Shown one piece after another: positions 2,673 through 62,580 of a stretch of 64,000 nucleotides of DNA. The first letter of the stretch is position 1, and every line of letters begins with the position of its first letter. The translations under genes and the position numbers were made by a program. Source of the DNA: Chloranthus sessilifolius (taxonomy: Eukaryota; Streptophyta; Magnoliopsida; Chloranthales; Chloranthaceae); contig CM037597.1 in NCBI GenBank assembly GCA_021018995.1, positions 32,242,936 through 32,306,935 of the forward strand. Direction: 5' to 3'. The notes beneath the pieces were generated by a model that did no database searches, was not told where the DNA came from, and worked only from the letters and a program-made list of their open reading frames with translations.

Positions 2673-4742
2673 TATTGGCGGGTTTCAGTGTGCAGATTTA
2701 TTATGTAATGAAAAGAAAGGAAATAAAATCAAAGTAAAACAGAGAATGGATTCAGCACATCTAAAATATCCTAGACCTGCAAGATACAGGGTCCTTTGTA
2801 GCAGGTTTTAATAAGTAAGAGTTTGTCCCATAGGGAGTAGTGATCTAAACCTAGAAGGCGTATAGTATACCTCCAGATCTAGCTACAGATCTGGCAATTC
2901 TAGGAAGAAAGAGAGCTTTTCGGGTGTCACTAGATCTAATTTATAGAACTGAAATATAAAACTAAACTAAGAGATGGATGAAGATGGATGAAAAAATGAA
3001 GATCAAATGATGAGAAATAGACAGCTAAGGCCTGGTTTTCATTGCAAAATAGATCAAGATCTGAGGATATGCAGCCATCCTTTATTTGGCTACAAGCACA
3101 AATGCAAGGTATAAGAATCTGATCTAGACCAGTGGTTTGGATTCATCTTAAGGCTATGATCTGTCCACTTCAATTGTCACAGATCATCCAATAGATTTCC
3201 TCCATCCCTGGTTTGGATTGATCTTATGGCTATGATCTGTCCACTTAAATGGTCATAGATCATCCAATAGATTTCCTCCATTCCAATGGCTTCGATCAAA
3301 ACAAGATAATCACTACAGATGTTGTGGATGCAAGGCCACAGGCACAGACACCCACAGGCATATCAAACCCAGGGAAATCAGATGGTCTTCAAGAGATCTA
3401 CCAGTTAAGTGGGTGAGCTGATTAACAAACTCCTCTACACAAATCCGATCGAGAATCTAATGGGACCACAAGATCTTTAGATTTAACTAAGTTTTAAAAT
3501 CAATAATTTATTGCTTCAAACAAAACAACTTATAATAAACTTGTTCCCAGATCTATAGTTTGTACATCGATCCACATTTCTTCATGTCGAAATTACAATT
3601 ACAAACCAGATCTGAGCTGCTATCTAGATCTAATCCAACAGGTTGGATTAGAGAGAGAAGGGGGAAGAGAAAAAGGAAAATAAAAACCTAAACTAAACCT
3701 AAATGAGCTAAGGAGAACTCAGGTTATTCCTTTGTTTCTACTTTCCTTGCTGAAGAAAAATAACAGAAAGGAATTCTATTTATACATTTGCAGTGATCCG
3801 TGTGCTTTGGATTGCAGTCAATCAGAAGACAGGGTTTTAGTTTAAGCTTAATCCCTGTTTAAGAGTTTCAACCAATCAGAGAAGAGATAGGGATTGTGCC
3901 CAGCTGAAGCTAATTTGCATTCCCGCCAAAAGTTAGCTCACACCCATGTGCAGAATTTCCTGTGCATTGGAGCTCCCAAAATGCCCTTGTTTAGCCAAAA
4001 ACACCCAGCTGCACACCTCAAGTGATTGCTCCCAGCTGCTGAGAATGCCCATAAAATAATCATTCTCACTGCCCCAAAAGAATTACTAAACTGCTGATAT
4101 TAAATCTCATGGTTGCAGCTTGGAAGAATAGGCTTGAAGCATTTCAATAGGTTAAAGGCTTGGAGCTCATCTGCTCGACAGGTCCAAGGGATGCTGGGAA
4201 GACTGCACTTCGAGAGGATTGTGCTCTTCACCTCTAAAAGTAGGCTGCACGGGAGGTGAAGCTTTTGTGTGGATGCATGGGAGGTTGAGGTCGAGAGGTT
4301 GGGCTGTAGCTTAAGTAGGTGCAGTCTACAGGTTTCAAGGTGCAAAGACCTGTATGTCGACAGCTTGAAGAAATAGCCGATGTAATTCGAGAGGTTGGGC
4401 ATCTCCTCCAATGGTTGACAGGTTTGGAAGCTTTGGAGTTCTAATCGACCGGTTGGATAGGATATTGACTGCACATCGGCAGGTTAGACAGAGGCTGGAG
4501 GTTGGGCATCTCGACTGGTTCGGATATTTAAGTGGTAAAAAGGCTCTGTGGTCTAGTTTGCAGCTGGAGCTGTGCATGAAAATTGTCGACAGGTTTGGGC
4601 TGCTGGGTATCCACTCGACAGGAAGGATATTTGCTGCAATTGGGTTTCGTGAGGATGGATGGGAGCTGCAAAAGCATTTCGAGAGGTTCCTTTGAAAGTT
4701 CATACACTCGATAGGATTGAAGTTCCCTTCGTGGAGTTGGCT
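2673..4742 (-). repeat. 3' LTR (B) of element M, shortened at its 5' side
   Basis: It aligns with 14130-16680 of LTR A, including the boundary (TATTGG versus TGTTGG) and the block running from the cctagacct signal through tagtgatctaaacctagaagg. It lacks the first roughly 1 kb of the LTR and the ~360-bp patch seen in LTR A (14432-14790). It carries the gtccacttaaatggtca module twice (about 3164 and 3231) and a TATA-like ctatttata at 3776-3784. Confidence 0.8.
3776..3784 (-). promoter_or_regulatory. TATA box in LTR B
   Basis: Minus-strand TATAAATAG, at the same relative place as the one in LTR A (15561-15569). Inferred to mark the U3/R boundary region. Confidence 0.55.
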
Positions 4743-8991: not shown

Positions 8992-10924
8992 TTCTTGCTC
9001 CATCCGCCCATTCATCCTATCGAACGCTTCATTGCAGCTGCCTGCAACCTATCGAATGGATGGTTTCAACTTCTCGATTTATTCAAATGGGAGCTGAAAC
9101 TTCATCCTATCGAGTAGTACTCCTCCACTCACCATCCTATTGAGCAGTCCTATCGAATGGATTGCTGAAGCTGTTGTTTTAAACCTGTTGATGAACCTGT
9201 CGCATATAGCTCCCCATCCTCTCGAGATGCTTCAGAAAATCAATCCAATTCGGGTTCTAGCATTCATGTAGGGTTTAGTTTTGGTAACTTTAGCAGCTGT
9301 TGTATGGATCCAAAGGGCTGCCTTGGTAATTGCTGCAGCCTTGTTCTAAAGTAATTTCTAGCAAATGTACAAGGGCTGCAGCAGAAAATATAAATGAACG
9401 GCAGGGATATTTTGGGATAGCCAGCGTAATTACTCTGGGGGCATTTTTCAGCAGATTGGTACAATTATCTAAGGAGTGCAGCTGTAAATATTAAGGGACA
9501 ACAGGGGTAGTTTTGGAAACTTCAAAACAAAGGTAGCTACACATGGGCAAGATTGACCGATTGAATGAAGGTCTCAGCAGAAAATATTTGTGGATAAGCA
9601 AGGGCAGTTTCAGGAATTTCAATACAAAAGGATGGCTGCACATGGGTGTGAACTAATTTTCGGCGGGAACAAATTAGCTTCAGCTAGGCACAAACAAAAC
9701 CAGATCTCTATCTCTTCTCTGATTGGTTGAAACTCTTAAACAAGGATTAAGCTTAAACTGAAATCCTCTCTTCTGATTGGCTGCAACTCAAGGCACATGA
9801 ATCACTGCATACCTATAAGTACCCATCTATTTTGTTGTTTTTCTTCAGCAAGGAAAGTAGGAACAAAGGAATAGCCTGAGTTCTCCTTAGCTCATTTAGG
9901 TTTAGTTTAAGTTTTTATTTTCCTTTTTCTCTTTCCCCTTTTCTCTCTAATCCAGCCTGTTGGATTAGATCTAGATAGCAGTTCAGATCTGGTTTGTAAT
10001 TGTAATTTCAGCATGAAGAAATGTGGATCGATGCACAGACTACAGATCTAGGAATAAGTTTATTGCAAGTTATTTTATTGAAGCAATAAATTATTGATTT
10101 TAAAGCTTAGTTAAATCTAAAGATCTTGTGGTCCCATTAGATTCTCGATCAGATTTGTATAGAGGAGTTTGTTAATCAGCTCACCCACTTAATCGGTAGA
10201 TCTCTTGATGACCATTTGATTTCCTAGGGTTTGATATGCCTGTGGGTGTCTGTGCCTGTGGCCTTGCATCCACAACATCTATAGTGATTCTCTTATTCTG
10301 ATCGAAGCCATTGGAATGGAGGAAATCTATTGGATGATCTGTGACCATTTAAGTGGTCTAATCATAGTCATAAGATCAATCCAAACCAGGGATGGAGGAA
10401 ATCTATTGGATGATCTGTGACCATTGAAGTAGACAGATCATAGCCTTAAGATGAATCCAAACAACTGGTCTAGATCAGATTCTTATACCTTGCATTTGTG
10501 CTTGTAGCCAAATGAAGGATGGCTGCATATCCTCAAATCTTGATCTGTTTTGCAATGAAAACCAGGCCCTAGCTGTCTATTTCTTACCATTTGATCTTCA
10601 TTTTTCCATCCATCTTCCTCCATCTCTTAGTTTAGTTTTATATTTCAGTTCTATAAATTAGATCTAGTGACACCCGAAAAGCTCTCTTTCTTCTTAGAAT
10701 TGTCAGATCTGGCTACAGATCTGGAGGTCTACTATATGCCTTCTAGGTTTAGATCACTACTCCCTGTGGGACAAACTCTTACTTATTAAAACTTACTACA
10801 AAGGACCCTGTATCTTGCAGGTCTAGGATATTTTAGATGTGCTGAATCCATCCTCTGTTTTACTTTAATTTTATTTCCTTTCTTTTCATTAGACAATAAA
10901 TCAGCACACTGAAATCCCCCAACA
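8336..10924 (+). repeat. LTR C, an M-family LTR in inverted orientation
   Basis: It is the reverse complement of 14130 to about 16850 of LTR A and of most of LTR B. It ends with CCCAACA at 10924, followed by the same six-base spacer (agtttt) that precedes the primer site in the other Athila elements here. B and C resemble one another more than either resembles A. It contains the gtccactt module twice (10310-10460), the CCTATCGA-type motif array (8340-9240) and a TA microsatellite. Confidence 0.8.
8920..8985. repeat. (TA)n microsatellite in LTR C
   Basis: About 60 bp of tacata then pure TA. It occupies the same LTR position as the TA tract at 16278-16327 in LTR A. The open frames crossing it are artefacts. 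Confidence 0.95.
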
Positions 10925-42969: not shown

Positions 42970-43540
42970 GGGTCTAAAATGCCAGATTATTGTTTTAGCC
43001 TGCATTCTGACTATATACTATTGTTTCAGTATATAGTCTCCATATGTTGGGATCTGAGCCACAGAGCTATTATTTCAGCCTGTGTCCAGTCATGTACTAT
43101 TGTTTCAGTGCATGGTTCCCACGTTAGGATCATGGGGCCTGAGCCACAGAGCTATTGTTTTAGCCTGTGTCCAGCCATATACTATTGTTTTAGTATATGG
43201 TCCCACATTAGGGTCATGAGGCCTGAGCCACAGAGCTATTATTTCAGCTTGTATCCAACCATATACTATTGTTTCAGTATATGGTCCCACATTAGGGCAA
43301 AAGGGGTCTGAAATGCAAGACTATTATTTCAGTCTGCATTCCGACTATATACCATTATTTCAGTATATAGTCTCCCTATGTTGGGATATGAGCTACAGAG
43401 CTATTATTTCAGCTGGTGTTTAGCCATGTACTATTGTTTCAGTGCATGGTCCCGATGTTAGGGTCATGGGGCCTGAGCCATAGAGCTATTGTTTCAGCCT
43501 GAGTTCAGCCATGTACTATTAGTGCATGGTTCCCACATCA
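42970..43540. repeat. Minisatellite, unit about 83 bp, about 7 copies
   Basis: The words gagccacagagctatt and actattgtttcag recur at 42977, 43055, 43141, 43224, 43307, 43388 and 43474. Each unit contains actattgtttcag-like words twice, suggesting an older half-unit of about 40 bp. The open frames crossing it on both strands are artefacts. Confidence 0.9.
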
Positions 43541-52377: not shown

Positions 52378-53435
52378 CTATCCATTAACCTTAAAAATAC
52401 GATTGTCTTTGGGATCTTGAATGGTTACAGCCCCATGAGGGAATGCTTCTACCACATTATATGGTCCATCCCAACAACTTCGTAGTTTTCTTGGGAATAG
52501 TTTCAACCTTGAATTATATAGCCAAACTTGTTGGCTCGGCTCAAACTTTTTTCTTAGAATGTGTTTTATCATGAAATGCCTTGGTTTTGGCCTTATAGAT
52601 TTGAGCATTTTGGTATGCATCATTTCTAATTTCTTCGAGTTCATTCAGTTCAAGTTTTCGTTACTCTCCAGATGCATCCAACTCAAGTTTAATGCTTTGA
52701 TGGCCCATAGAGTTCTATGCTCTAATTCCACAAGTAGGTGGCAAGCTTTTTCATACACCAATCGGAAAAGGGACATGCCAATGGAAGTTTTATAAGCCGT
52801 TCTATATGCCCACAGAGCATCATTCAATCTTATGGACTAGTCTTTTCTTTCAGGTCAAACCGTTCTTTCCAGTATCTTCTTTATTTCACAGTTGGAAACC
52901 TCAACCGGACCACTAGTTTGTGGGTGGTAGGGGGTTGCGATTTTATGCATAACACCATATTTCTTGAGCAAACTCTCGAAATATCTGTTACAAAAATGGC
53001 TCCCTCCATTTCTTATAATAGCCCGTGGGGTTCCAAACCGTGCAAATATATTTTCTCTGATGAAAGAAACTACCACCTTGTAGTCATTTATTCGTGTAGC
53101 CGTTGCTTCTACCCATTTTGACGCATAGTCAATAGCTACAGGTATGTATATGAACCCAAACGACGGTAGAAAGGGACCTATAAAGTCAATGCCCCATCAA
53201 AAGGTTTTGCGACCAAAATCGGTTGAAGGGGCATCATATTTCTTTGGGACATGGCTCCTGACTTCTGACACCGATTGCAGGCTTGACAGAAATTATGGAC
53301 ATCCTTAAGTAACGATGGCTAATAAAACCCCGATTGTAGTACCTTGGCAGTCGTTTTCCTTCCACCGAAGTGGCCCCCATATGCATATGTATGACAGAAT
53401 TGTAGGATATTGTGGGTGTCACTGTCAGGCACACA
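52378..53435 (-). pseudogene. Integrase region of element J
   Basis: Blocks: [70 protein letters not shown], then QQVWLYNSRLKLFPRKL and SCWDGPYNVVEAFPHGAV. These are closely similar to the integrase of D, so J and D belong to the same broad lineage. Broken. Confidence 0.9.
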
Positions 53436-53630
53436 TTTCCTAATTATTTGGTCTAGGCATATTTTAAATAGGTCTGGATCCTCCCAAATATAGTATTTTA
53501 CATTAGCAAAGAAAGTAAATCGGTCTTAATTAGACCAGGTTGGGGGAATCTTACCTATTGTCAAATAATTCACGATATTTGTATACCATGGAACTATTAC
53601 TTGGATGGAAAAATGTTGCTTATCCGAAAA
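53436..53630 (-). pseudogene. RNase H-integrase connection of element J, left of insertion E
   Basis: It aligns with 1767-1960 of element D. It is interrupted at 53630, and homology to D resumes at 56252 with loss of only about 15 bp relative to D. Confidence 0.75.
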
Positions 53631-53689
53631 GGTGAGTATTCCCGTCTGTCACACGGGTGACCCGAGTTCGATCCCCGGCAACGGCGCCA
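53631..53689 (+). tRNA. Partial tRNA-Asp(GTC), cDNA-derived, with CCA end
   Basis: This 59-nt stretch matches plant tRNA-Asp from the GG of the D-loop to the 3' end. It includes the anticodon arm with GTC in a seven-base loop and perfect five-base stem, the T-arm GTTCGATCC, the 3' strand of the acceptor stem (CAACGGC), discriminator G, and CCA. The first 16 nt are absent. CCA is not encoded in plant nuclear tRNA genes, so this is a copy of a mature tRNA that primed the LTR at 53696. It is not a functional gene. Confidence 0.9.
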
Positions 53690-53695
53690 AAAACT

Positions 53696-56251
53696 TGTTG
53701 TTTAAGTTGTTTTGTGCCTGTTGTGTTATTATTAAAAATGCGATAAAAAATACAGCAGAAATAAAGAAGGCAAAAATAGATGAAAAGGAGGCTTAAAATG
53801 GATTGAACACAGCAGCAAAACAAACACACAGTCCTGCAAGATCTAGGGCTGTTGTAGCAAGTTTTGATAAGTAAGAGTTTGTCCCACAGGGAGTGATGAC
53901 CTAAACACAATAGTGGAATAGTAAATCTCCATATCTGTTACAGATCTGGCAACTCTAAACCTAAACTAGAAAGCAAGGTAAAGACAGGGTATTTTTGAGG
54001 TGTCACAAACTAAACTAAAAATAAAAACAAAAACTAGATCAAAAGAAAAGGGGGTAAAGAAGAATGATAATGGGTTGGTAAGATAAAATATAAAATATGG
54101 AGAAGTAGACAACTATGGGCTAATCGTCACTGCAAAATAGATCAAGAGTTGGATCTACAGCAGTCCTTCACTTGGCTATAAGCACAATTGCAAGGTAAAA
54201 GAATCCAGCCTAACCCAGAGAGATGAACTGATCTTAGGGCTATATTCTATCCACTTAAATAATCACAGAATATCACAGGGATTTCATTAAATCAAGGGGT
54301 TAAAGTTGAAACAAGAAAACCATTGTAGACATTATGTTTGTAAGGCTACAAACTCATGCATCCATAGGAGCAAACAATTCATAAAAATCTAGTAAAGACC
54401 ACAAGAAATCACAGATTGAATGGGGCTTTAAAATTAGTTGGTCATTGCTACAAAGAGGCTTGCAATGACCTAGCTCTCAAATCTGCAATCTCAGTAAGAC
54501 CCCAGATCTATTAACTGAAAATAGTATTATAAAACAGAGGAGAAGTTGGATCTACAGTAGTCCCTCACTTGGCTACAAGCACAAGTGCAGGGAAAAAGAA
54601 TCCAGCTCAACCCTTAGATCTAGACTAATCCTAGGGTTATATTCTGTCCACCTAAATGGTCACAGAATATCACATAGATGTGATCCAGTCAAGGGGTTAA
54701 ACTAGAACAGAAAGACTACTACAACCACTATATTTGCAAGGCTGCAAGCACATGCATCCATAGGTGCATAAAACCCATATAGATCTAAATGATAAATATA
54801 AAAAAAATATAGATTAAATGGAGCATTAAAAATGGTTGTTCATTACTAAAAAGGCCTTACAATGACTCTGCCCTCAAGGCTGCAGTCTCTGTAAGATTCC
54901 AAGATTGCTCACAATGTTATTACAAAGCAGATTACAGCATCCAACATAACCCTAGTTGCTACAAAGATTTAACCCAACATTACTGTTGAGATAAGAAAAG
55001 AAAAAGAAAATGAAAAAGGAAACTAAACCCTAACTCTAATCCTAAAATGAGCACAGGCTAAGAGTATTCCTAGCTGCTTTTTACAAAATAGATTACAGCT
55101 ATATATACAATCCATAAAGCAATGAAATGTTTTGGCTAATCAGAAAGAGGGAAAAATCAAAACTTTAGGAGCTGCTGTCGTGGCTCATTCTCAACATAGT
55201 GGTGCCTCAGGATGTGGGGAATAGCTCAGCACATTGGGACATGTGCCCTAGGTGCTGTGAAAGTTCCAAAATACCCCTGAAGTTTGAATACAAAAGCTGG
55301 AACCCAAGCTTTGAGTGGTTGGAGCTTCAGAATATAAATCTCGTGAGGTTCTCGAGCAATTGGAGTGTTTCTGATGGGTTCTCGAGTAGTTGACTAGTGG
55401 ATAAAGGCTTCAGCCATGTATTCTCAAGTAGATTTCGAGTGGCTGAAGGTCTTCAGGTATTCAGCTCGACAGGATGCTTCCTCCACTCGACAACATGTAG
55501 TGCTTCAGCAATGCAGCTTGACAGGATGAATTTCTTCAGGCTGTAGCTCGACAGGATGCTTGGGAACTGCTCGAATGGTTAAATTTGAAGTAGCTTTCAG
55601 TTGCTCAACAGGTTCAAATGGTTCTTCCACTCGACAAGTTGAAGTGATGCATTCTTTCAGCTGCTCGACAGGTTTAATGGTTCATCTCTGAAGTGCTCGA
55701 GAGCTACTCGAGCTAGAAGTGTTGAAGACTGATCTACTCGAGTTGCTTCCTTAACTGCTCAGCAGCTAGTCAGCCTTGGAGTTCTGAAGATGTGATCCAC
55801 TCGAGACAGCTTGAGTGGATGTTTGTAAAGGAACAGAGCTGCTCAAGATTTCTTTGCTGAGGCTAGCGGTATGCTCGAGCTGCTCGATAGGGTAACTCTT
55901 GAAGGCACAGAGCTGCTCAAGAGTCAGAATGCTGCTTTGCTGCTCTGTTCTTTCCACTCTATTGTAGCACTCTACTAAGCATGGGCCTCACTTCTCTCTC
56001 TCTCTGCAGGACTTCTAGGGCCCCAAGGCATGCTAGATAGCCCCTATGGTGTGAACCACCATGATGCATTTATTGTAATTCCCATTAGCTTCAAGGCTTG
56101 ACTCCAATTTCTTTTATCTTGGCACTTATGATATGGACTATTGCACTAAGCTACAGTTTATTTCTAACTACAAAAATATACTTCAAAATCAATTATTACA
56201 TAGCTCAAAGGTCTATCAAAGGCTAGGTTTGGAGGTGGAAAGTGGTTAACA
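53696..56251 (-). repeat. LTR of insertion E, 2.6 kb
   Basis: Termini are TGTTAACC (56251) and CAACA (53696). The gtaagagtttgtccca signal lies near 53870, two copies of the ccacttaaatggtcacaga-type module near 54245 and 54645, a TATA box at 55099-55107, and an array of CTCGACAGG/CTCGAG motifs at 55320-55960 in U3. It is related to the LTRs of M and D but distinct from them. Confidence 0.85.
55099..55107 (-). promoter_or_regulatory. TATA box in LTR E
   Basis: ctatatata on the + strand, TATATATAG on the minus strand, in the same relative place as the TATA boxes of LTRs A and B. Confidence 0.5.
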
Positions 56252-57345
56252 GTGTCGTGCAGAGATTCTTTACTGATGGTCTAAGGCATTTCTATCCTGG
56301 ACAGGTGATCAGACACCATGTTCTCAACTCCCTTCTTGTCCTTGATCTCGAGGTTGAATTCCTATAAAAGAAGGATCCACCTGATTAATCTTGGCTTGGT
56401 ATCCTTTTTTGATAGTAAGTATTTTAGTGCAGAATGATAAGAAAAGATCACAATCTTAGATCCCAATAGGTATAGTCAGAATTTATCCAACGTGAAGACT
56501 ACAGTGAGAAGCTCTTTCTCAGTGGTGGTATAGTTAACCTGAGCTTCGATCAAGGTTCAACTGACATAATAAATTACATGAGGAACCTTATCTCTTCATT
56601 GTCCTAAGATGACACCTATTGCGTAATCAGAAGCATTACACATTACTTCGAAAGGAAGTGAATAGTCAGGAGATTGAATAATTGGGGCGGATGAGAGAAG
56701 TGCCTTAAGATTGATAAATGTGTCAAGACAGGAATCATCGAAGTTAAAGGGTACATCATTTGCTAATAGGTGACATAATGGTCTCGAGATTTTTGAAAAA
56801 TCTTTGATAAATCGGTGATAGAATCCGACATGACCAAGAAAAGATCAAATATGTCGTACTGAAGTTGGTGGTGGTAGATTCGCTATTACATCGATCTTAG
56901 CTTTGTCAACTTCTATCTCCCTTTTAGAGACAATATGCCCTAAGACTATACCTTCTTTAACCATGAAATGACTCTTCTCCCAACTTAGCACTAAGTTGGT
57001 TTCTTCGCATCTTTCTAAGATGAGGGCAAGATGATCAAGTCAAGAATTGAAAGTTCGGCCAAACACCGAAAAGTCGTCCATGAATACTTCAAGAAACTTG
57101 TCTATCATGTCAGAAAGATTGCCATCATGCATCTTTGGAATGTTATAGGTGCATTGCATAACCCAAAGAGCATGCGACGATAAGTAAACGCCCCAAAAGG
57201 ACACGTGAAAGTAGTCTTTTCTTGATCTTTTGGGTAGACCGAAACTTGGTTGTACCCTAAATATTCGTCTAGAAAGAAAAAATATTTCTGCCTCACAAGT
57301 TTTTCCAAAATTTCATCAATGAAAGGTAGGAGAAAATGATTTCGC
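56252..57345 (-). pseudogene. RT and RNase H region of element J, right of insertion E
   Basis: From 57345 downward it has [55 protein letters not shown], the F-M-D-D box (about 57060-57085), then thumb and RNase H parallel to D. It begins abruptly at the fusion with G. Several breaks. Confidence 0.85.
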
Positions 57346-57905
57346 ATATAATCTGTGCTCACGAAGAGTGTGTAGCACAATACGAAGGTGATCTGTATGA
57401 GCTTCTTTTGTGCGAGAATAGATAAGGGCATCATCGATAAACACAACGACGAATTTGTCGAGAAACTCTCTGAATACACGATTCATCAGATCCATAAATA
57501 CAGCAGGTACATTCGTGAGTCCAAAAGGCATAATAAGGAACTCGTAGTATCCATACCTTGTCCCAAAAGCAATCTTCGGAATATCTTCTTCTCTAACCTT
57601 CAACTGATGATATCTAGACCTGAGATCTATCTTCCAAAAATATGTAGTACCCTGTAGCTGATCAAATAGGTCATCGATACGAGAAAGAGGGTATCAATTT
57701 TTTCATGATGATATTATTTAGCTGTCGATAGTCGATACAAAGTCTCATCGAGCCATCTTTCTTTTTTACGAATAAGATCGGTGCTCGCCATGGTGACTCA
57801 CTACGTCGGATAAATCCCTTATCGAACAACTCTCGCAACTAAATCTCTAACTCTTTCAGTTCTATTGGTGTCATTCGACACGGAACTTTTGCAATTGGTA
57901 GGGTA
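57345..57905 (-). pseudogene. Reverse transcriptase part of G
   Basis: Blocks: ELREL-like start, [60 protein letters not shown], then the catalytic [11 protein letters not shown] and [17 protein letters not shown]. This is the chromovirus wording, clearly different from the Athila RT that follows. Relic. Confidence 0.92.
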
Positions 57906-58445: not shown

Positions 58446-58559
58446 GGGTTCACACGTGGTCTAATTATACACACGCCAAAGCATTCTCAAGAAAATAATA
58501 AAGAAAAATTGTACACAAAGCGAACCATAAAAGCAATCGAAAGGAAATAAAGCTTAAGA

Positions 58560-59570
58560 AAGTAGTGAAGGTGTAGTTCGTACCCTGAACGACCTCATCG
58601 GTAGCCAAGGCATCCTGATGTGACATGGCAAAAACTTGACCCTACGCTCGAGGCTGCTGCTGCTGACCTCTCTATGGAATATCCAAGGCAGGTTCTCGCT
58701 CCGGACAATCTCGAACAAAGTGCCCCGACTTCTTACATCGGAAACACACACTCATATGTAGTAAACATTCACCTAGCTTTTGCCTCTTGCTGCACTTGGC
58801 ACATGCTTCATATGGAACATAGGCACTCGTAGGGGCCGCTGTCTTCTTATATTGAGCTAGGGCATTCTTGGGGTATGCCATAGATACAACACCTCTCTGA
58901 GCAGGTTGGGCTATAGTCATCCCTAGATGAGTGTATCCTGATGATGGTGCAACTCTCTGATAACCGGAGGCGGGTTCTGCTCTCTACACTGGGTGAACGG
59001 TGGGTACGGCGTGAAACAATGCTATCTTTATACCGGTGCAGGTCAAGAAGGAGGTGCTCTCAGAGTGAAGGACAAAGAGCCTTCTCGAGTCATTTTACCC
59101 CTTTGTGCTACTTGGCGAGCTAGATGTTGGGCGCGTAGTTCTTCATTTTCCTGCTCCTGAATATAAGCTCGTTCTACATGCTCTCTAAAGGTTGAAATTT
59201 TTAGCATAGCAATCTTACTCTTAGTGATGGGGTTGAGCCCTTTCTAAAAATAGTAACACTTCTCAGCTTTAACAGCTACCAACATAGTAGCGAATCAGGA
59301 GAGTCGATCGAACCTCACCTCAGACTCTGTCACAGACAGGGTTCCTTGCTGTACTGCCAGGAACTCACTCTTTTTCTAACCCTTCATGGCATTGGTGAAG
59401 TACTTATTATAAAATACTTCTCTGAACTACTGCTAAGTCCACTGCTCTTCTTCTTGTCTGTTTTCCAATCTCTTTGCTAACGTCCACCAATTTTGGGCAT
59501 CACCTTGCAGACACATCACAGCCCAAGGTACTTTCTCATTTTTTATAAGAGTAGAGACTTTGAAAAGCTA
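58560..59570 (-). pseudogene. Gag part of G
   Basis: The zinc knuckle CFRCKKSGHFVRDC (C-x2-C-x4-H-x4-C) lies at about 58700-58750, with a second Cys pair just before it (CAKCSKRQKLGECLLH). Above it come the linker and capsid part with FREHVERAY-, EENEELRAQHLA- and FDRLS-type words. About 58465-59330 of it is the left arm of an inverted repeat with H. Confidence 0.85.
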
Positions 59571-59662
59571 TCCCAAATACGATACCAAATACAAAATAGC
59601 ATAAGATAAATAAGGTAGGATGGGGTAGAATTTCGGGTTGAGAATTACAACAAGGAACCCTA

Positions 59663-60430
59663 TCCATGATCGAGTACGAGGTAAAGTTTGATCGACTCTC
59701 CCGATTCGCTACTATGTTGGTAGCTGATGAAGCTGAGAAGTGTTACTATTTTCAGAAAGGGCTCAACCCCATCATCAGAAGGAAGATCGCTGTGATAAAA
59801 ATTTCAACCTATGGAGAGCTTGTAGAACGGACTCATATTTAGAAGTTGGAAAATGAAGAATTGCGTGCTCAGCATGTAGCTCGCAATATAGCACAGAGGA
59901 GTAAACTTACTCGAGAAGGCTCTTCGTCCTTTACTCTGAGAGCACCTCCTTTTTGACCTGCACTGGTATAAAGACAGCAGCATTTCACGTCGTACCGTCA
60001 GACTCACCCAGTTCAGAGAATTGCTCCCACCTCTGATTATCAGAGATTTGCACCATTGTCAGGATACACTCATCCAGGGATGACTACAATCTAACCTACT
60101 CAGGGAGGTATTGTATCTACGGCATACCCCAGGAATGCCCCAACTCAATATCAGAAAATAGTAGCACCTACGGGTACCTTTCCCCAACGCCCCTACGTTC
60201 CGTATGAAACCTGTGCCAAGTGTAACAAGAGGCACAAGCCAAGTGAATGCTTATTACACATGAGCATGTGTTTTCGATGTAAGAAGTTGGGATACTTTGT
60301 TCGAGATTATCTAGAGTGAGACCCCGCCATGGATATTCCTCAGAGTGGTCATCAACAATAGCCTCGAGCTCAGGGCCAAGTGTTTGCCATGTCACACCAG
60401 GATGCCTTGGCTACCGATGATGTCGTCCAG
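59663..60430 (+). pseudogene. Gag part of H
   Basis: Words VKFDRLSRFATMLVADEAEK and NEELRAQHVARN appear, and near 60260-60310 a zinc-knuckle region CFRCKKLGYFVRDY. It parallels the gag of G in opposite orientation. Relic. Confidence 0.82.
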
Positions 60431-60783
60431 GGTATGAACTACAACTTGTCTACTTTCTTAAGATTTATTTCCTTTCAATTGCTTTTATGTTTCTTTTTGT
60501 GTATAATTTTGTTTTATTATTTTCTTGAGAACGCTTTGGAAATGATTGGATCAAGTGAATATCAGACTAAAGTTCGACATACCACACATTCGGAGAAATC
60601 GGGGACATCAAATCAGATTATTTTAGAAATTGATGAATTAGCGTCGACCACCTTCATAGAGGGGGACCCTACCTTGATGATATCGAATCTTAGGTGCCAA
60701 AAATATAGAATTTTTATTGGTGATTCAAGATTAACAAAGAGCTCAATGTCACATTTACATAATTTTTGAGGACGAAAATATTA

Positions 60784-60796: not shown

Positions 60797-62580
60797 TTAG
60801 ATGTGTTTAACCTACCTTAGTTGAGAAAGTACACGTTTTGATTTTTTAAAAGTTTTTATATTTAAAGTTATATCTATTTGACACAAGTTATGTGATGGCT
60901 TGCTGGTAAAAGGCTTGAGCTGTAGACAAGAGGTCTAAAGGTCAAAACATGTTACAAAGGCTTTAAACCTTTATTTTGGACCATGAAGTAAAAGCCTTTA
61001 CACCCTTATTTGGAGTGACAGCTTAACACCAAATTTCTTCCCATATATCTTAAATAAGATGTTACGGGAGACCCTAAAATCATAACTCGAGAATTCTTCT
61101 TAAAAGAAAACCCTAGCCATCTCCGCTCCCTAATCTTTTCTTTCTTAAAAACCCTAGTCATCAAATATCTTCTTCTCTAGTCGCATTTCTCTAAAAATAC
61201 TTTAAATCTTTGTGTGTTCTTCCCCGAAGAACACCGTGTTTATCTCGTCGCCAAGATCGGGGTGGAAGAAGGCAAAATCGTAGATGGGCCATCGTATGGA
61301 CATCGATCTCTTCGCCCTAATCATCGTTGATTTGCTATCACGCTTCAAGAGGTGGGTACCCATCCATCCATCTCGTTCTTCTCATAACCCATCGCGAAGG
61401 ATACGATTTGATCACGTATCGACAGGCTAATAAAATGAAGCTAGATTTGATTTCCTATAAAAACTACTTTTAGGATTGATACAATGGTTATTTTTTATTT
61501 TAATATAATTTTTATGAATTTTTTGGATACATTATGGGTTTATTTGAAAGCAGATCCATCGAAATTGCAGCAATAGTCGATCGATCGATTATCCTAACTA
61601 TCGACTTTGGCACCTTAATCTCGATTGATCGATCGATCAACTATATAATATAACAACGAGTTTATATGATTTTAACAGTGTCTCAAGTCGCGGTTTTGAA
61701 TTAATCGATCAATCGATAGTGTAAATCGATTGATCGACTACCGCGAATTCTGAACGGATCTGGGTTTCGAAATAAGCCCATAATGTATCTGAAAAATTCA
61801 TAAAAATTTTATTATAATAAGGATCAACCATTGTATCAATCCTAAAAGCAGTTTTGATAGGAAAATAAATCTAGCTTCGCGATCGAATTGTATCCTTCGC
61901 GACGGGATCTGAGAAGAATGAGATGAATGGATGGATACCCACCTCTTGAAGCATGACAACAAATCAATGGTGATTAGGGTGAAGAGATCGGCATCCACAT
62001 GATGGCCCGTCCACGATTTTGCCTTCTTTCACCACGATCTTGACGGCGAGATAAACACAATGTTCTTCGAGGAAGAACACACAAAGATTTAAAGTATTTT
62101 TAAAGAAATGTGGCTAGAGAAGAAGATATTTGACTGTCAGGGTTTGTAAGAAAGAAAAGATTAGGGAGCAGAGACGGCTAGGGTTTTCTTTTAAGAAGAA
62201 TTCTCGAGTTATGATTTTAGGGTCTCCTGCAACATCTTATTTAAGATATATGGAAAGAAATTTGGTGTTAAACTGTCACACCAAATAAGGGTGTATAGGC
62301 TTTTACTTCATTGTCCAAAATAAAGGTTTAAAGCCTTTGTAGCACGTTTCAACCTTTAGACCTCTTGTCTACAACTCAAGCCTTTTACCAGCAAGCCATC
62401 ACATAGCTTGTGTCAAATAAATATAACTTTAAATATAAAAGCTTTTGCAAAATTAAAACGTATACTTTCTCAACTAAGGTAGGTTCCGGTGTGGAGCTCT
62501 ACCACCAAAGATGGCGCAAAACACATCTAATACCACAAGATTAAGTGTGCTAAAAATCAGGTCGTTACATCGCGCCTACA
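60797..62580 (+). repeat. LTR of H, containing a ~1.75-kb near-complete palindrome
   Basis: It starts just after the purine tract (TTAGATGTGTTTAACC) and probably ends with GGTCGTTACA near 62580. Arms of the internal inverted repeat are about 60795-61600 and 61725-62545, with a loop of about 125 bp rich in TCGATCGATC words. Outer ends read attagatgtgttt and aaacacatctaat. Confidence 0.8.

Follow-up and report, generated by a model that had tools for sequence, protein, structure and literature searches.

How does a single long terminal repeat (LTR) come to stand in a chromosome with a copy of a tRNA joined to its end and no internal region behind it? The question is raised by one locus in the window, by which we mean the whole stretch of 64,000 nucleotides of Chloranthus sessilifolius DNA (contig CM037597.1) that was analysed. 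On the minus strand, a repeat that we call LTR E runs without a break through a spacer and a primer-binding site into the complement of tRNA-Asp, and from there directly into the pol gene of an older element. The LTR, the spacer and the tRNA copy are the whole remnant of the inserted element; host pol resumes at 53630-53634. The features are collected in the table.

Table. Features of the LTR E locus, in window coordinates.
Feature	Positions	Strand	Basis or remark
Host pol, downstream part (integrase zinc finger and core, decayed)	52381-53630	-	Pfam, self-comparison
Junction bases GGTG	53631-53634		53634 host-like, not tRNA; 53631-53633 fit the tRNA D-loop (GGT) and the host alike
GTG at the tRNA-host joint, same as 56252-56254	53632-53634		best empty-site model; weak
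Read-through part: tRNA-Asp complement, A58 (53671) down to A21 of the D-loop	53635-53671	-	34/37 identical
Primer-binding site TGGCGCCGTTGCCGGGGA, 18 nt	53672-53689	-	18/18 identical to the tRNA-Asp 3′ end
Spacer AGTTTT from LTR end to primer site, 6 nt	53690-53695	-	identical at the sites near 14.1 kb and 21.6 kb
LTR E, 2556 nt, starting TGTTAACC at 56251 and ending ...AACAACA at 53696	53696-56251	-	LTR alignments, terminal AACA, spacer, primer site
GTG beside the LTR edge of the insert	56252-56254		
Host pol, upstream part (reverse transcriptase and RNase H, decayed)	56255-57320	-	Pfam, self-comparison

An earlier note on this DNA had read 53631-53689 as a copy of tRNA-Asp(GTC). In that register, from G18G19 of the D-loop to CCA, the plus strand is identical to a plant reference at 55 of 59 positions without a gap. 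The ends of this reference agree with printed sequences, and its middle part is taken by us to be that of the plant tRNA. In print are its first 32 nt (as a 'miRNA', PMC5831935), its first 24 nt (again as a 'miRNA', PMC3519564), its first 18 nt (as a tRNA-Asp primer, PMC6521008) and its last 20 nt with CCA (as a 'miRNA', PMC8747174). Past the D-loop end of the copy, identity in the ungapped comparison collapses to 5/16 over the rest of the register. The extent given in the earlier note needs trimming: the copy does lie in the place and orientation of the primer site, but its first four bases, 53631-53634, are ambiguous. Because 53634 is G, the host base in the best empty-site model described below, and the tRNA has A, we end the secure copy at 53635, which leaves 55 nt (53635-53689). 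A chance match is ruled out, since the part outside the 18-nt primer site scores 33 in the window and the best score in 60 simulated first-order-Markov windows is 17. A functional tRNA gene is ruled out as well: ARAGORN finds no tRNA gene in the whole window, the cloverleaf is incomplete, and the Rfam tRNA score at 53615-53683 (16.8 bits, E 1.3) is below the gathering score of 29, as expected of a truncated copy.

Which part of this stretch is informative? The earlier note had treated the CCA as proof of an RNA origin. That argument is weak, because a primer site for the 3′ end of any tRNA holds TGG anyway. The pattern GGCGCCGTTGCCGGGGA, allowing up to 3 mismatches, occurs three times in the window (0.02 expected), and AGTTTT followed by TGG is found at all three primer sites. 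What is diagnostic is the uninterrupted 37 nt past the primer site, 53635-53671, combined with the fact that element sequence does not reappear after them. After the primer site, the minus strand passes in order and without a break through the T-arm, the variable region, the anticodon arm and the D-loop. The similarity to tRNA-Asp that the note had described beyond the 18-nt site is present, and the agreement within the site and beyond it identifies the primer as tRNA-Asp, again as the note had it. At the other two primer sites, near 14.1 kb and 21.6 kb, the tRNA sequence stops right after the site and gives way to a leader that contains TTGATCT in both. Since neither of these two is extended, the extended copy is not the rule in the window.

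The boundaries of LTR E follow from comparisons within the window. On the U3 side, its alignment with the first part of LTR D (24309-24094, 69%) begins at its sixth nucleotide, and that with 17736-17611 (72%) begins at its seventh. On the U5 side, its BLAST matches extend as far as nucleotides 2422-2428 of 2556 in comparisons with LTRs near 14.2, 21.7 and 2.8 kb. The last ~130 nt lie outside these matches, and the LTR end was set there by its AACA, by the spacer that follows and by the primer site. Self-comparison of the window finds no partner LTR, so that LTR E is the only LTR of its own element there. Judged by its relation to LTR D and by its primer site, it appears to belong to the Athila-type (OTA) lineage of plant Ty3/gypsy elements. 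It carries a trait of that lineage, an 18-nt tRNA-Asp primer site, here 6 nt behind the LTR end (lineage pattern as described in PMC1142308). The Athila-type primer sites and pol remnants of the window, along with the tRNA match, point to plant DNA. LTR E also contains an internal direct duplication, 54134-54499 and 54531-54896, whose halves are 76% identical.

The sequence on either side of the insert is that of a single older gene. The downstream flank matches a neighbouring stretch of the window on the same strand (52685-53597 against 1019-1931, 67.5% identical), and the upstream flank matches the continuation of that stretch (56294-56670 against 2005-2381, 70.6%). Because both flanks match neighbouring stretches of one pol gene, we place LTR E and its tRNA copy, 2.6 kb in all, as an insertion in an older gypsy pol, within its RNase H-integrase region. 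Protein domains agree with this placement: integrase lies downstream of the insert, and reverse transcriptase and RNase H lie upstream of it. We searched Pfam at E 0.001 with 10 unmended open pieces, 5 from the host and 5 from other elements in the window, and 8 of the 10 matched. On the downstream side, rve lies in 52858-53196 (6.3e-12) and Integrase_H2C2 in 53322-53525 (6.3e-05, below its own cut-off); the host piece 52381-52644 matched no Pfam family. On the upstream side, RT_RNaseH_2 lies in 56599-56844 (1.7e-10) and RVT_1 in 57108-57482 (2.3e-09), the matched part running from about 57320 down. These matches point to a gypsy-type host pol.

Further observations concern other parts of the window. 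A second gypsy-looking reverse-transcriptase reading of different sequence, labelled by eye (57316-57693 / 57105-57482), adjoins the start of host pol near 57320, as if the pol fragment had been fused there to another element. Beyond the remnant lie two large inverted repeats, 58476-60539 and 60809-62485, with arms of 109-608 nt that are 81-90% complementary and innermost gaps of 292 and 224 nt; they look like foldback or head-to-head duplicated elements. Elsewhere, two LTR-like stretches in opposite orientation, 2675-4001 and 9587-10922, are 90.9% identical over 1341 aligned nt, and a tandem array at 43013-43520 consists of about 6 copies of an 85-nt unit.

How could such a structure arise? 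In the standard scheme of reverse transcription, plus-strand strong-stop DNA consists of U3, R and U5 followed by 18 nt of tRNA, where synthesis stops at m1A58, and this stop guarantees a plus-strand end that fits the primer site of the minus strand. The locus has the composition of a product that missed the stop: U3-R-U5, then primer complement longer than 18 nt. Since the tRNA complement is contiguous past A58, read-through of the primer by reverse transcriptase, the reading of the earlier note, stands as the best explanation, and we regard it as very likely to be the cause, with this one case as its support. It is also probable, at somewhat lower confidence, that the locus as a whole is plus-strand strong-stop DNA that read through its primer, failed in strand transfer and was inserted alone into the older pol. 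Stranded DNA of this kind is likelier than a provirus with an odd primer site, because there is no internal region and because the insertion lies in older pol, two points that the earlier note had passed over.

The proposed sequence of events is as follows. An Athila-type LTR retrotransposon would have primed reverse transcription with tRNA-Asp, and its plus strand, begun at the polypurine tract, would have copied U3-R-U5 and the 18-nt primer region. Instead of stopping at A58, the strand would have continued via the T-arm, the variable region and the anticodon arm to the D-loop, and its over-long 3′ end could not have paired properly with the minus-strand primer site, so that the second strand transfer would have failed. 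The molecule would have arisen after the first strand transfer, since the U3 side of LTR E is complete to its TG edge. This dead-end DNA, an LTR with a tRNA copy, would then have entered the pol of an older gypsy element by itself. Its U3 edge would have been joined precisely, probably by integrase, and its tRNA end by end joining, perhaps aided by the short match GTG/CAC. We assign the second joint to end joining because a tRNA end is not an LTR end and would hardly be a substrate for integrase. This particular route, with integrase at one edge and end joining at the other, is advanced tentatively, at slightly less than an even chance.

Parts of this scheme have been established in other systems. 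The block of plus-strand synthesis at m1A58 is established for HIV-1 with its tRNA-Lys3, and in TRMT6-TRMT61A mutant cells HIV-1 plus strands extend past A58 (as described in PMC13191261). That source distinguishes five classes of product: those that reach the tRNA 5′ end or finish at position 37 do not serve as active templates, and only those that end near the T-loop do. In Arabidopsis, the TRM61/TRM6 enzyme is established with a role for initiator tRNA-Met, and the term 'tRNAAsp' has 0 occurrences in PMC7475180. Plants do possess end joining at short matches (PMC12786077, section 12), and one study cited in the same review finds that the second strand transfer depends on alternative end joining, which uses microhomology at primer sites.

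The two ends of the insert bear differently on the proposed route. The LTR edge is precise: the insert starts TGTTAACC at 56251, and host pol lies directly beyond it in the best empty-site model. Such models were made by joining the flanks at 8 cut points. The best, with a score of 116, has the host resume at 53631, and the others score 108-113, a choice that depends on one homologue about 68% identical and on a margin of 3 score units. The best join loses no host bases and keeps one reading frame (DHLSRIEMP*TISKESLHDTFSDKQHF; homologue, DHLSRIVLEECVATPVNELFPDEQLF); cuts at 53628 (111) and 53634 (108) are in the same frame with lower scores. The GTG shared by the two joints, CAC on the minus strand, is possibly a 3-bp duplication or a microhomology at the tRNA-host joint. 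When the right boundary was moved through 18 positions (53628-53645), none gave a clean 5-bp target duplication, the best having 2 mismatches; a 5-bp duplication at the insertion would require two substitutions (GTGAG/GTGTC). Because a likeness of 3/5 is reached at 3 of the 18 placements (53636, 53638 and 53640), it is no evidence of duplication. According to PMC6317226, 93.4% of the plant elements surveyed there have a 5-bp target duplication. Since this signature is absent here, the integrase step is unproved.

The same joints can be read in another way. A complete element that already carried the over-extended primer site might have inserted with a 5-bp duplication, and a later deletion between the CACC in the tRNA stretch and a CACC at the 3′ flank would then have removed the internal region and the 3′ LTR. 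The best empty-site sequence contains GACACC, from which the observed joint could have been reached without loss of host bases. This reading requires, however, that an element with an over-long plus strand was viable and that the deletion end hit the edge of the target site by chance, and it finds no partner LTR in the window; we consider it unlikely. We think it quite improbable that the long tRNA-Asp-like stretch is instead an inherited trait of a non-autonomous subfamily. Non-autonomous LTR elements with tRNA-like parts are indeed known, Helenus among them, but in Helenus that part sits inside the LTR and the elements measure 311-1263 bp (as described in PMC10886601). Moreover, no extension is seen at either of the related primer sites elsewhere in the window, and the tRNA stretch adjoins host DNA. 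Helenus itself, a TRIM with the tRNA-like part inside both LTRs of a small element (PMC10886601), was set aside as a model for the locus, where there is one LTR of 2556 nt and the tRNA lies outside it. Ajax was considered and likewise set aside.

An exchange of the primer site with a chromosomal tRNA-Asp gene, by gene conversion or by illegitimate recombination, would be compatible with the CCA, because the TGG would come from the primer site itself, and 15 nt of that site match the 3′ end of the gene. The tRNA stretch would then be expected to lead back into the element, whereas it passes into host pol and not into an element leader, and the 5′ part of the tRNA is missing; the exchange is very improbable. 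A solo LTR formed by recombination beside an independent tRNA retropseudogene, which the structure resembles at first sight, is scarcely credible and is disfavoured by the sequence as read, since solo-LTR formation leaves no primer site, whereas here the exact register of the primer site is retained together with the normal spacer AGTTTT, whose presence makes the locus more than an LTR beside a tRNA pseudogene.

We therefore return to stranded plus-strand strong-stop DNA and compare the locus with known cases. Copies of tRNA joined to retroviral DNA are already known, and the locus is a variant of a known accident. A circle of murine leukaemia virus DNA carries tRNA-Gly between its LTRs (Colicelli and Goff 1986, as described in PMC12220202). 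In both cases a reverse-transcribed tRNA is joined to LTR DNA and the 5′ end of the tRNA is incomplete. The circle is unintegrated and was made with a 'spurious' tRNA-Gly primer, only four bases of which are missing from the tRNA sequence, whereas at our locus the primer is of the type usual for the lineage, was copied to the D-loop and is chromosomal. Closer in its setting is an HIV-1 provirus with a reverse-transcribed tRNA-Gly and CCA beside its LTR (Gurgo and Franchini 2025, PMC12220202), which is likewise chromosomal and likewise lacks the normal duplication at that place. There, a non-cognate tRNA lies outside the LTR, and the authors suggest that this tRNA primed its own copying; at our locus, the tRNA is at the primer site, after U5 and the spacer. 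The read-through of HIV-1 without m1A58 (PMC13191261) is the same as the event proposed for the locus, but it concerns laboratory cDNA and tRNA-Lys3, and the available account does not describe it as an inserted LTR with tRNA.

Among plant elements, Diaspora, a Ty3-gypsy element of soybean (PMC1142308) placed in the Athila clade (PMC6317226), resembles LTR E in having an 18-nt tRNA-Asp primer site behind a long LTR, with a gap of 5 bp where LTR E has 6. Diaspora elements are normal, and the available part of PMC1142308 describes no tRNA beyond 18 nt. An ordinary solo LTR shares with the locus one LTR without an internal region; the locus differs in its spacer, its primer site, its 37 more nucleotides of tRNA and its lack of a clean 5-bp duplication. 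Among the open-licence papers listed, as far as titles and the openings of abstracts go, we recognised none that reports a plant LTR insertion carrying such a lengthened copy of its primer. Pattern searches covered viruses and prokaryotes and are uninformative on plants: in IMG/VR, neither the read-through pattern nor the T-rich pattern of the primer site has a match, and the pattern of tRNA-Asp with CCA has 0 matches in a genome-contig collection. A 17-nt primer-site core does occur in 15 IMG/VR contigs; we take these matches as chance, the T-rich LTR end being present before it in 0/15 and the retrieved stretches having 50-71% G+C.

The copy itself holds some information about its primer. 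A58, at 53671, is unchanged, with no misincorporation, and it must therefore be assumed that the primer molecule was unmethylated or that a methylated base was bypassed faithfully. As to why the copy ends in the D-loop, synthesis may have stopped there, the end may have been trimmed, or the primer may already have been cut at that place. Printed sequences of 18, 19, 23 and 24 nt equal the 5′ end of plant tRNA-Asp; their authors list them as miRNAs, their ends vary, and in our own reading they are tRNA fragments. Nicking of the primer in the D-loop, setting the end of the copy, is compatible with these fragments.

The copy also holds some information about its age. The read-through part differs from the tRNA at three positions: 53645 has T for C, 53653 has A for G, and 53665 has A for G. 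Each of these, read on one of the two strands, is a transition of the C-to-T type, and their contexts are CHH, CG and CHG. Methylated cytosines in plant repeats decay by changes of this type. Positions 53645 and 53653 are partners of one anticodon-stem pair, changed from C-G to T-A with pairing kept, which may point to a tRNA-Asp isodecoder or to the coincidence of two decays. The change at 53665, read by eye from the printed sequence, disrupts a T-stem pair. The fourth difference, at 53634 (A to G), is at the edge and is not of the C-to-T type. With 3 differences in 55 nt, and with 7 CpGs kept in the tRNA copy where the reference has 8, the sequence suggests a moderately old insertion, although one short stretch gives no date. 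The ratio of observed to expected CpG is lower in LTR E (0.20) than in LTR D (0.33), part of LTR B (0.36) and host pol (about 0.6). Perhaps LTR E was already CpG-poor when it was copied.

The yeast Ty1 model is presumed to hold for reverse transcription in plant elements (2025 review, PMC12786077), and because that scheme is presumed, direct evidence is useful. The locus is direct DNA evidence of the primer that was attached in one plant-type retrotransposition event. It indicates, too, that an error of reverse transcription can reach a chromosome as a one-LTR insertion that could be annotated as a solo LTR. A broader proposal, of which we are rather doubtful, is that read-through dead-end DNAs are regularly inserted in plant genomes as units of LTR and tRNA and lie hidden among annotated solo LTRs. 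If it were true, the tails of such units would record which tRNA had primed synthesis and whether the blocking methyl was present at A58. The length of the tail, which here reaches the D-loop, in or close to the place of the apparent cuts in plant tRNA-Asp that leave 5′ fragments of 18-24 nt, would reveal whether nicked tRNAs are used as primers. A genome-wide collection of LTRs followed by more than 18 nt of tRNA complement would then measure the failure of second strand transfer, the tRNAs that prime, the positions at which copies end, and the occurrence of primers free of m1A58.
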